Notes under the pieces: generated by a model | What the model saw: the letters and a program-made list of their open reading frames with translations, nothing else | What the model was told of the DNA's origin: nothing | Database searches by the model: none | Position numbers and translations under genes: made by a program | In this document: piece after piece, positions 33,631-60,404 of the stretch | Numbering within the stretch: the first letter of the stretch is position 1 | How the letters are laid out: every line of letters starts with the position of its first letter | From: Archaeoglobi archaeon JdFR-42 | GTDB lineage: Archaea > Halobacteriota > Archaeoglobi > Archaeoglobales > JdFR-42 | NCBI GenBank assembly: GCA_002010305.1 | Contig: MTND01000018.1 | Span: 1-64,000, forward strand | Length of the DNA: 64,000 bases | Reading direction: 5' to 3'

Positions 33631-33688
33631 GGAAAACTTCATAAATTGTTGGAATAACCGGAAAACTTCATAAATTGTTGGAATAACC
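33631..33688. repeat. Perfect tandem duplication, 2 x 29 nt
   Basis: GGAAAACTTCATAAATTGTTGGAATAACC at 33631-33659 and 33660-33688. Confidence 0.95.
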
Positions 33689-33821: not shown

Positions 33822-35024
33822 ATGCATTTAAGGAGACTATTTCTGACCCTGTTGATAGCAATAGCGGTAGCTGGAGTTGCTTCAGCAGCCGAGTATGTGG
33901 GGTCAGAGAAGTGCAAGGTGTGTCATTCAGATATATACGATGATTTCATAAAAACAGGACACCCTTACAAACTAAGGCCAGCAGACGAGGCAAGAGCTGG
34001 CAGTCCTGAGAATGGTATCAGAGCAGTAACTGAGATCCCAGAAGGAGTCTCATGGGATGATGTGAGTTATGTCATTGGAGGGGTGTGGTGGAAAACTAGA
34101 TTCATAAATGAGACTGGATATATCATAACGGGGGACAAAGTTCAGTACAACATAGAGACAGGTGAGTGGGTAGCCTACCATCCTGGAGAAGTGAAGCCAT
34201 ACAATTGTGGGAGATGTCACACAACCGGCTACAGTGAAGATGGAAACCAAGATGGACTTCCTGGACTTGAGGGTACATGGGCATTTCCAGGAATAGAGTG
34301 TGAAGCATGCCATGGTCCAGGAGGGGACCACATTAAAGCCCCAAGCAAAGATAACATCGTAAAAGATGAATCCAAAGAACTCTGTGGTAAATGTCACATC
34401 AGGGGTGATAAAGATTCCATTCCTGCCAAAGGTGGATTTATTCGACATCATGAACAGTACAACGAGCTATTGGCATCTCCTATGAAAGACCTAAACTGTG
34501 TGACCTGCCATGATCCCCACAAAAGCGTTAAGAATCCGACCGTCACAGATGCCATAAAAATAGGATGCGAGAGCTGCCATAGCGATGCTGCAAAGGAATA
34601 TGAAGGTACTGTAATGGACAAAGCTGGTGTAGAGTGTATTGACTGTCACATGCCTAGAGCCAGTAAATCAGCCGTTGCTAAGTCCCAGTACGAAGGAGAT
34701 ATAAGAACCCATCTCTTTGCTATTAGCATCGATCCAAACGCAAAGATATTCACTGACGACGGGAAATATGTGGCAGGAGGGTATGTAACAGTTGAATATG
34801 CGTGTCTTGGCTGTCATAAAGACAAAGACAGAGAATGGGCTCTGAAATACGCTCCAAAGGCAATGACACTAAAAGAGGAAGTGAAACCAACACCACCAGC
34901 AACTCCGAAACCGACAACACCACCACCGACACCAACTCCGACACCAGAGAAACAGCCTGGCTTTGAAGCAATCTTCGCAATAGCAGGAGTGCTGGCAGTC
35001 CTGTACTTCCTTAGAAGGAAATAA
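33822..35024 (+). CDS. Octaheme c-type cytochrome with PGF-CTERM surface anchor
   Basis: Signal peptide; eight CXXCH motifs (CKVCH, CGRCH, CEACH, CGKCH, CVTCH, CESCH, CIDCH, CLGCH); Pro/Thr linker then QPGFEAIFAIAGVLAVLYFLRRK. Confidence 0.95.
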   Translation: MHLRRLFLTLLIAIAVAGVASAAEYVGSEKCKVCHSDIYDDFIKTGHPYKLRPADEARAGSPENGIRAVTEIPEGVSWDDVSYVIGGVWWKTRFINETGYIITGDKVQYNIETGEWVAYHPGEVKPYNCGRCHTTGYSEDGNQDGLPGLEGTWAFPGIECEACHGPGGDHIKAPSKDNIVKDESKELCGKCHIRGDKDSIPAKGGFIRHHEQYNELLASPMKDLNCVTCHDPHKSVKNPTVTDAIKIGCESCHSDAAKEYEGTVMDKAGVECIDCHMPRASKSAVAKSQYEGDIRTHLFAISIDPNAKIFTDDGKYVAGGYVTVEYACLGCHKDKDREWALKYAPKAMTLKEEVKPTPPATPKPTTPPPTPTPTPEKQPGFEAIFAIAGVLAVLYFLRRK

Positions 35025-56828: not shown

Positions 56829-59800
56829 TTAGTGTCTTCTCCTGAGCAGGTAGGCTACTGCAAGCAGTCCTACCACTGCGAAGATTGCTTCAAAGCCAGG
56901 CTGTTTCTCTGGTGTCGGAGTTGGTGTCGGTGGTGGTGTTGTCGGTTTCGGAGTTGCTGGTGGTGGTGTTGGTGTCTTTGGCGGTGGTGTTGGTGTTGGT
57001 TTAGCTTTCACAGTGAAACTTCCAGTAACGCCATTCACGTCAACATTGTAAGTTCCTGGTGTATCTTCTGTCACTGTGAAGGATACGATGTCAGATTCTC
57101 CTGGACCAAGAGACACACTCTTTGTAGCGACTTCAGTGCCTGCAACCTTCAGAGTTATGTCTGCTGAACCCTCAAGATCTCCAGAGTTCTCTACTGTTGC
57201 CTTGATGGTTACTGGCTCTCCAACTTCAACCTGCGATGGAGATACTTTGACATCAGTTACCTGAATGTTGGCTGCTGGCGCAGTTACGGTCAGCAGGACA
57301 TCCACACTGTACACTGCATCGTCATCTGCTGAATTCTCGTCAGCTTCTGAACTGTCTGGTGGGATCTGGAATATATCCTTCTCATCCTGACCAGCTAGTT
57401 TGGTCTTACTGAAGTCTCTTGCAGTTATGGTGTATGTACCTTCAGACAGACCCTTGGTTACAAAGGTTGCTGTTGCAGTTCCGTTCTCATCAGTGTAGAC
57501 TTTCTTCATGTAGTCTCCCAATGGCAGGTTCGGACCTGTCATGGAGACCCAGATCTCCCAGTTCTTACCGTGGTTAGTGTGTATTGTTGCAACCAGATCA
57601 TCGCCTATCTGGACTGCACTTGGTGCTGCTACATGTATGTAGGGTCTGATTATCTTGAAGGATCCCTGTGCGGAATCAACACCGGAACCATCATACACGA
57701 GATCTACTGTTACTGTGTATTCCTCACCTACTGCAAGGTTCTTGGATGAGTCTGTCGCACTCTGAAGCGTATCCCACTCTACCTTGAAAGTCTTGTCTCC
57801 AGCAACTGCATTACCTGTCAACAGCTTGTCAATGTTCGGACCTTCGATTCTCACATTAACAGTTGTGCTTCCAGTCTTTGGTGAGTCTGTAGCACCCGTT
57901 ATAGTGAGTTTCTCGTTCAGTACCACTTCTTCAGGTATCGTCAGACTGGTGATCGATGGGTTGATCACATTGATGACTACTACATCGAATGGATCAGTCT
58001 TCTTCACAATGGTTGCATTGGATGGTGCATATACATACACCTTGTACACACCGGTTGCCTGACCGATGTCTACAGCAAAAGTCTGTGTGAATGTTCCTTC
58101 AGAGGTTACTGTTATTGGCAATCCATTAACGAGAGTTCCATTCGGGTTCTCAGCTCCAGTCTTTTCAGTCAAGCCAGCGAATGTACCAGATGGACCGATG
58201 AAATATGCCCTGAGCGGCACATCTTTAACTGTTGAACTGCCTGTAAGAGTGAATGAATCTCCTCTGATCAAGGTTTCTTTGTCCACGCTTATTGAAATGG
58301 CCTGCTCGACCACAGATATGGTCACACTTGCATCGTGAGTATTACCTTCTGCATCAGTCAATGTTGCAGTAATCTTGTAAGACTTGATGTCAGCATCACT
58401 TGGCACTGTAATCTTCATGCTGTAGTCTCCATTGGCATCTGTGTAAGTAGTTGCAGCTCCAACAAGGCCACCAAAGTCGAAGTCAACTTTCAGGCCTGTT
58501 CCAAGGGTTGTGTGACCGCTGAAGGTTACACTTGCTCCTCTAACCACTTCACTCTTATCTGCCGACAGAGTGAATTCTGGAGACTGTACAGAGAATGTCA
58601 GAGTCTTTGTTTTAAGTATCGTTGTTGGGTCTTCATATAATTCTACATAGACGACATAGGTTCCCTTGTCATAGAATGTTGTGCTTATCTTCTTGCTGTA
58701 TGTACCATCGCTGATGTCAACAGTAAAGGTCTGGTTTACTCCATTGTTATCCTGATATATATCATTCGGATCACTCGAAGTTGCTACCCATATCTTGACC
58801 TTGTTGAATGAACCAGATCTCAGTACATCATACACAGAGCCAGTGTCAGCCAAGTTCGTGGTTCCGCTGACTGTTACACTCTCACCTTTCAGCACACTTG
58901 TAGCAGAGACATCTGCTGTCAGAGATGCTCCGGCGAGTGTGAAGGTTGTGCTTGCATCAGTACCGTCAGTCTCAACTTTAACTTTGTAAGTGCCAGTCTT
59001 GTCGAGAGTACTTGTATCTACCTTGAAGGAGAAGCTTCCATCTCCAGCAGGAGTTATTGTGTCGGTGTAGCTACCATTCATTGGACCTGTAATGGTGAGG
59101 TTCACCTGTTTTCCGCTGTTTGTCGAACCTGTTATATAAATGTAATCTCCTTTCGTGACTTCAGCCGGGTCAACGTTGACGGAGATTGTGACTGCTCCTA
59201 CAGTAAATGTCGATGATTCCTCTAGGACTTTAGCAAAATCGGTCATAAATAAGTTAACTCCAGTTATATCTCCATTTTGGTACCATGAGGAATTCCCGAC
59301 TACATTCGCTGAAACTCCTGCACCAGTATTACTCACATAGACGGACCATACAGCACCTCTATAATCTCTCACCGTTAGTGTGTATGCCCCATCTCGAATA
59401 CCACCAGATACTGCACTTGTATTCCACTGGAAGTATGCAAAGCCGTTAGTGTTAGTTATCAACCAGATATAATTCCCAGAAATACCTGCAAATGTGTCTG
59501 GATCATTCCAAGCTTCAATTCCTTCAGTGACCACTGCACCCGAGGGATCCTTAATTTCAACTCTCAATGGCACATAAGGACCTCTAGCACTGAAAATCTT
59601 TACTTTTAATGATTCTCCAGAATAAATTGATCCATCTACGTAGGAGACCACTAAGTTATTCGCTTTTATGAAAACCCTTCCGGTTGTTGTATATGTCAAC
59701 CCACCATCATATGATATTTTGATCCAATGATAACCTGGTGCTAAATTAGCTGCATTAGAATTGGGATCTAGGAACAAACCTGCGAACCCATCATTTGCCA

Positions 59801-60404
59801 AATCACCATACCCGCCGTCTGTCACTGTCGTTGGTGCAAATGACGAACTCGAAGGAGTTCCATTCGCTGTATCTGGCTCAAGAGTGACCACTGCAGTTGA
59901 AGCTGGGCTGATATTTACTTGTACGAGCTCACCGATATACCAAGAATCTTTTTGAGAAGCATTTGCCATTATATAGGCAGTCCTCTGTACTGTCGGAGAA
60001 GTCCCATTTGGATAATATACATATATATATGTTCCCGGACCGCTACCAACTCCAGCTGTCTCATTTGCAATAACGCTTGAACCATACACCAGATTTAACG
60101 TTCCCTGGTACCGATATGATGTAGCTGGTACATATGTCAGATTTAAATTTCCTAAAGTGGAATTTAGCGAAGTATTGAATTGGACAGTAACATTCCCTGC
60201 TCCTAGATTCGTGGTTGTATCGAGCAACACACTTATATTCGCTGTTCCATTTGCGTAGATCTCATATCCCAATGTATATTTGTCCTCATTTAGCATGTCT
60301 AATGTATCTGCTGCACTAACAGCCCCTGCAGTCACTGCCAGCACCGCGATCAACAGTAAAACCGTGAGTCCGATTTTCCCTTTTATACTCATACCTTTAC
60401 TCAT
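56829..60404 (-). CDS. S-layer-like surface glycoprotein with Ig-like repeats, CARDB-like domain and PGF-CTERM
   Basis: 1191 aa, signal peptide, repeated Ig-like segments (VTKGDYIYITGSTNSGK, VLKGESVTVSGTTN, VVRGASVTFSGHTT, LIRGDSFTLTGSS), many NxS/T sequons, C-terminal EKQPGFEAIFAVVGLLAVAYLLRRRH. Confidence 0.93.
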   Translation of the reverse strand: MSKGMSIKGKIGLTVLLLIAVLAVTAGAVSAADTLDMLNEDKYTLGYEIYANGTANISVLLDTTTNLGAGNVTVQFNTSLNSTLGNLNLTYVPATSYRYQGTLNLVYGSSVIANETAGVGSGPGTYIYVYYPNGTSPTVQRTAYIMANASQKDSWYIGELVQVNISPASTAVVTLEPDTANGTPSSSSFAPTTVTDGGYGDLANDGFAGLFLDPNSNAANLAPGYHWIKISYDGGLTYTTTGRVFIKANNLVVSYVDGSIYSGESLKVKIFSARGPYVPLRVEIKDPSGAVVTEGIEAWNDPDTFAGISGNYIWLITNTNGFAYFQWNTSAVSGGIRDGAYTLTVRDYRGAVWSVYVSNTGAGVSANVVGNSSWYQNGDITGVNLFMTDFAKVLEESSTFTVGAVTISVNVDPAEVTKGDYIYITGSTNSGKQVNLTITGPMNGSYTDTITPAGDGSFSFKVDTSTLDKTGTYKVKVETDGTDASTTFTLAGASLTADVSATSVLKGESVTVSGTTNLADTGSVYDVLRSGSFNKVKIWVATSSDPNDIYQDNNGVNQTFTVDISDGTYSKKISTTFYDKGTYVVYVELYEDPTTILKTKTLTFSVQSPEFTLSADKSEVVRGASVTFSGHTTLGTGLKVDFDFGGLVGAATTYTDANGDYSMKITVPSDADIKSYKITATLTDAEGNTHDASVTISVVEQAISISVDKETLIRGDSFTLTGSSTVKDVPLRAYFIGPSGTFAGLTEKTGAENPNGTLVNGLPITVTSEGTFTQTFAVDIGQATGVYKVYVYAPSNATIVKKTDPFDVVVINVINPSITSLTIPEEVVLNEKLTITGATDSPKTGSTTVNVRIEGPNIDKLLTGNAVAGDKTFKVEWDTLQSATDSSKNLAVGEEYTVTVDLVYDGSGVDSAQGSFKIIRPYIHVAAPSAVQIGDDLVATIHTNHGKNWEIWVSMTGPNLPLGDYMKKVYTDENGTATATFVTKGLSEGTYTITARDFSKTKLAGQDEKDIFQIPPDSSEADENSADDDAVYSVDVLLTVTAPAANIQVTDVKVSPSQVEVGEPVTIKATVENSGDLEGSADITLKVAGTEVATKSVSLGPGESDIVSFTVTEDTPGTYNVDVNGVTGSFTVKAKPTPTPPPKTPTPPPATPKPTTPPPTPTPTPEKQPGFEAIFAVVGLLAVAYLLRRRH

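Follow-up and report, generated by a model that had tools for sequence, protein, structure and literature searches.

Why should the genes of two unrelated extracellular proteins, a multihaem cytochrome and an S-layer-type glycoprotein, be identical over 89 nt? In the window, which is the whole 64-kb stretch of DNA that was analysed, positions 34891-34979 of the cytochrome gene and the reverse complement of positions 56877-56965 of the S-layer gene agree at 89 of 89 positions on re-comparison, as a sequence-only reading of this DNA had claimed. The two copies lie 22 kb apart on opposite strands. The features concerned are as follows.

33822..35024, plus strand: secreted octaheme c-type cytochrome of 400 aa, with a signal peptide, eight CXXCH motifs, a Pro/Thr linker, and a PGF-CTERM tail
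34884..34979, plus strand: shared module in the cytochrome gene, encoding the linker KPTPPATPKPTTPPPTPTPTPEKQ and the core PGFEAIFA; the exact block is 34891-34979
34956..34979, plus strand: PGFEAIFA core of the PGF-CTERM signal, of S-layer type; cytochrome orthologues have PGFETVFA, PGFEVLGA, or PGFEAVLA
34980..35021, plus strand: transmembrane helix and basic tail of the cytochrome, IAGVLAVLYFLRRK, native and outside the shared block
56829..60404, minus strand: S-layer-type glycoprotein gene of 1191 aa, with a CARDB domain ahead of the linker and a PGF-CTERM tail
56877..57002, minus strand: shared module in the S-layer gene, the probable donor, encoding linker and PGFEAIFA and including 30 nt that are missing from the cytochrome gene
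56832..56876, minus strand: transmembrane helix and basic tail of the S-layer protein, VVGLLAVAYLLRRRH, native

The block lies in frame in both genes and encodes PPATPKPTTPPPTPTPTPEKQ-PGFEAIFA in the cytochrome and the S-layer protein alike, which bears out its description as a Pro/Thr linker plus the PGF core. The two genes had also been said to diverge on either side. This holds on the 3′ side, where the tract ends sharply and the next 39 nt are 64% identical, but not on the 5′ side, where the match resumes past a gap. With a single in-frame gap of 30 nt, identity runs 7 nt more to the linker start, at 34884 in the cytochrome gene and 57002 in the S-layer gene, so that the 5′ end falls in Pro/Thr repeats and the match covers the entire Pro/Thr linker together with PGFEAIFA, the core of the PGF-CTERM archaeosortase signal. 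A search of the whole genome (2,148,619 bases in 42 contigs) for the 89-mer returned these two copies only; the next-best matches were 34-nt linker matches of 85% identity on two other contigs. The sole other repeat of at least 20 nt in the window is a perfect 29-bp tandem duplication (GGAAAACTTCATAAATTGTTGGAATAACC twice, 33631-33688), which lies some 130 bp ahead of the start codon of the cytochrome gene and may represent duplication of a regulatory element. Two other loci, L003 (at the start of C34) and L004 (on C30), are paralogous genes located at contig ends or close to them; both encode a secreted protein containing a Pro/Thr linker, and their starts are near-identical but soon diverge.

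Codon bias does not explain the identity. If codons were drawn independently, the probability of obtaining the same codon at all 29 positions would be 10^-13.1 with the codon usage of the window and 10^-12.1 with that of the PGF-CTERM tails of this genome. Among 300 synonymous resamplings of the cytochrome and S-layer tail pair, the longest shared run was at most 29 nt. Silent-site identity in the block is therefore far above the codon-bias expectation, a recognized sign of gene conversion, and the 89-nt identity is due to common descent of the DNA.

Both proteins carry a C-terminal PGF motif followed by a hydrophobic helix and a basic end, as expected of PGF-CTERM proteins. PF18204 scored 32.7 bits for the cytochrome and 41.5 bits for the S-layer protein (cut-off 18.8). 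With TIGR04126 the S-layer protein was above the cut-off in the genome search (41 bits), as was the cytochrome (29.2), which scored 23.8 in hmmscan, just below the cut-off of 24.5. A search for the archaeosortase gene artA identified two archaeosortase A homologues, both far above the TIGR04125 cut-off of 75 (229.4 and 210.6 bits).

G000 C16:853-1647: archaeosortase A homologue L085
G000 C3:116971-117696: archaeosortase A homologue L086

From what is known of the pathway, the presence of two archaeosortase A genes means that a copied tail should be functional on the cytochrome or on the S-layer protein. A second S-layer-like PGF-CTERM gene (C16:4677) is situated some 3 kb from the archaeosortase A gene of C16; the estimated contamination of the genome is 2.15%.

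The body of the cytochrome, identified by its eight CXXCH motifs and its homology to octaheme proteins (PDB matches were weak or partial only), is a member of an octaheme family found mainly in bacteria. Its better relatives, at 41-58% identity, come from Pseudomonadota, Nitrospirota, Deferribacterota, Chloroflexota, and others. Across 59 genomes from the class, four cytochromes of this type were identified, the present one included. The Archaeoglobales cytochromes form a single clade (support 98/99) and all have a PGF tail, whereas the closest bacterial homologues stop approximately where the archaeal linker begins and have no anchor, which is why the anchor was probably gained in the archaeal line. 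Transfer of the cytochrome from bacteria is likely, on a tree that is unrooted. The analysed genome is placed in the same order as the Archaeoglobales relatives compared but in a different family, and in the only genome of its own family (G001) no orthologous cytochrome was found. In the orthologues, which are from other genera (G032, G022, and G254), the block is absent from the cytochrome locus and linkers and cores are different: ahead of the helix the three proteins have TPKPKTPGFETVFA (G032), KPTPGFEVLGA (G022), and EEKKTPGFEAVLA (G254), and the G254 core, PGFEAVLA, is partly S-layer-like.

We compared three segments of both genes, the linker, the PGF core, and the membrane helix, with those of relatives. 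The linkers of the two genes scored 65 of 75 against each other and at most 16 against any other gene, and the PGF core is 100% identical between the two genes. The helix behaves differently. Over the 39 nt that follow the block the two genes are 64% identical, whereas the helix DNA of the S-layer gene is 74-82% identical to that of S-layer genes of other genera and the helix DNA of the cytochrome gene is 74% identical to that of the G032 cytochrome orthologue, but also 74% identical to that of the G032 S-layer gene; over so short a stretch these distances are indicative only. The protein signatures, LYFLRR, LYVLRR, and LYVVRR in the cytochromes vs AYLLRRR in the S-layer proteins, agree with the DNA grouping. 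Judged from these comparisons, each membrane helix groups with its own protein family, and so both genes are mosaics. Because each helix follows its own family, a short conversion tract fits and a simple inversion swap does not: an exchange of gene ends through a 22-kb inversion between the inverted repeats is not supported.

We also asked if sharing of this kind recurs, using 110 PGF-CTERM tails from this genome and its Archaeoglobales relatives. For pairs with unrelated bodies, the final 240 nt were compared and the longest stretch of identical DNA was recorded. Runs of at least 18 nt were present in 12 of 172 within-genome pairs (7.0%) as compared with 44 of 5196 between-genome pairs (0.85%), and runs of at least 38 nt in 3 of 172 vs 0 of 5196. 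S-layer genes take part in 77 of all 172 within-genome pairs, yet each of the 12 sharing pairs includes one (Fisher p 4e-5); p-values here are indicative only, since related species are non-independent and the weakest cases could be due to codon bias or Pro/Thr repeats. When S-layer genes were set against other genes, runs of at least 23 nt occurred in 8 of 77 within-genome pairs and 15 of 2240 between-genome pairs. Of 77 other PGF-CTERM genes, 14 had the S-layer gene of their own genome as strict best match, where 2.9 were expected (S-layer genes were assigned by hand from body matches, that of G028 by its tail). For the cytochrome family this was so in all three genomes tested (scores of 94 vs 36, 42 vs 27, and 24 vs 18). 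PGF-CTERM tails thus track the S-layer gene of their own genome.

Among the individual cases, G021 has a 62-nt run between its S-layer gene and the gene for an 818-aa protein, and the leading runs are shorter in G020 (38 nt), G011 (33 nt), and G022 (23 nt). In G032, a run of 26 nt again joins the S-layer gene and the cytochrome gene. The idea that a surface anchor cassette has been spread between unrelated extracellular proteins is upheld in that the sharing is repeated within the order, but what moved was the linker and core and not the whole anchor. Outside the class, in the small sample provided by G065 and G280 of the same phylum (8 PGF-CTERM places), no shared run of at least 14 nt was detected among the readable tails. 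Two further observations concern tails in related proteins. Three related but diverged paralogues of G009 (C1:300940, C1:58495, and C6:77178; L136, L139, and L143) are identical to one another over tail stretches of 58-86 nt, a sign that these tails may evolve in concert. The products of G020 C5:51556 (L180) and G011 C1:421064 (L149) are homologues of about 61% identity from two genera, and the tail of each resembles the S-layer gene of its own genome.

The 89-nt identity is most probably the result of recent short-tract ectopic gene conversion, or of template-switch copying, within this genome and from the S-layer gene to the cytochrome gene; recent gene conversion or module transfer, as the sequence-only reading had it, is the best explanation. 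The S-layer linker and PGF core would have overwritten the corresponding segment of the cytochrome gene, which lies 22 kb off on the other strand, with local homology supplied by the Pro/Thr repeats on one side and by the conserved PGF core on the other. Gene conversion and template switching would fit the sequence alike. The event would be recent, since there is no silent change in 29 codons. Both proteins are presumably processed by archaeosortase A and fixed to a membrane lipid, in which case a copied tail would work wherever it lands.

The S-layer gene is probably the donor, with the ancestral tails judged from distant relatives, because the cytochrome orthologues have other linkers and cores whereas PGFEA[IV]FA, found almost always in the S-layer relatives, is typical of S-layer genes. 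It is unlikely that the same copying ran in reverse, from the cytochrome gene into the S-layer gene. The identity itself gives no direction, and S-layer linkers also vary freely among species, but PGFEAIFA is not typical of the orthologous cytochromes and EKQPGFEAIFA is also present in the S-layer gene of G033. The pairs found elsewhere, in which an S-layer gene is always one partner, argue in the same direction. In G021 and G022 it is the non-S-layer partner that departs from its orthologues, and G021 points from the S-layer gene to the other gene because the G019 orthologue of its partner is 70% identical in the body and has an unrelated tail.

Copying from the S-layer gene may be more general. 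We tentatively propose, at somewhat less than even confidence, that in Archaeoglobales the S-layer gene serves as the master copy of the anchor tail of its genome and has repeatedly overwritten linkers and PGF cores in unrelated surface proteins by short-tract conversion. This would be concerted evolution between non-homologous genes, and it would keep the anchors matched to the archaeosortase of the host.

Three other accounts of the identity fare poorly. An assembly or polishing artefact, in which the reads of one locus wrote the consensus of the other, is very unlikely: the genome is a draft of 42 contigs, but both copies lie within a single contig of 151 kb and are flanked by different sequence on either side, 89 nt is less than an ordinary short-read length, and comparable sharing is present in the single-contig genomes of G011 (33 nt) and G022 (23 nt). 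It is also highly improbable that the entire anchor tail, helix included, passed once from the S-layer gene to the cytochrome gene and that the helix alone diverged later. The bacterial homologues are without a tail and an anchor was probably gained at some point among the archaea, but this account needs a sharp jump in rate, from 0 changes in 29 codons to 36% divergence in the adjoining 39 nt, and it sits badly with a helix like that of the G032 cytochrome orthologue and with a single clade of Archaeoglobales cytochromes that all carry the PGF tail. Selection on DNA or mRNA for a common nucleotide module in PGF-CTERM genes failed when tested and is extremely improbable, since the encoded core is conserved as protein but no other PGF-CTERM gene of the genome has the block, not even the second S-layer-like gene on contig 16, the corresponding DNA of S-layer relatives is quite unlike it, and the best-scoring match elsewhere in 394 genomes of the phylum was 81% over 64 nt.

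Horizontal import of the block was likewise considered and rejected. No match in the other genomes searched exceeded 86% identity, and over more than 55 nt none exceeded 81%; the exception noted was 83% over 54 nt in G033.

Copying from S-layer gene to cytochrome gene has partial parallels in known systems. In bacteria, the C-terminal PEP-CTERM sorting domains of one species resemble each other more closely than they do those of other species, and they sit on proteins that have homologues without such a domain (Haft et al, 2006; PMC1569441). Within-species similarity of tails and a modular tail on proteins with tail-less homologues are common to both systems. The PEP-CTERM case, however, concerns the exosortase system and was argued at the protein level, with lineage-specific expansion of paralogues (PMC1569441), whereas here sharp-ended DNA identity points to the copying of sequence from one existing gene into another, unrelated one, with the S-layer gene always among the partners. 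With respect to PGF-CTERM anchoring by archaeosortase A, the signal itself is ordinary, with matching models and archaeosortase A in the genome; what is new is how its DNA moves between genes. In the VARTIG system of Thermococcales, recombination affects the 3′ part of surface-protein genes with a putative sorting signal, but what is diversified in that case is an Ig domain, between strains and apparently not between loci of one genome (PMC8416519), whereas here the linker and anchor core were homogenized inside one genome. Small multihaem cytochromes with a PGF-CTERM archaeosortase motif, like the one described here, are reported from ANME archaea and are predicted to be fixed to membrane lipid; the parts of that account available to us do not mention gene conversion of tails (PMC9012536). 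The present cytochrome differs in being of the mainly bacterial octaheme family. A literature search, with subscription journals largely outside it, found no account of DNA-level copying of a PGF-CTERM module between unrelated genes.

The modular nature of the anchor has long been known, and the newer part is copying at the DNA level centred on the S-layer gene. The locus provides evidence in the DNA itself for the spread of an anchoring tail between unrelated proteins, including its boundaries and its probable direction, and the recipient here is an electron-carrying cytochrome whose family is mainly bacterial. Should the S-layer gene prove to be a general donor, anchor evolution across the entire surface proteome would depend on a single gene. 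Any archaeal group that has archaeosortases and pairs of closely related genomes would allow this prediction to be tested.
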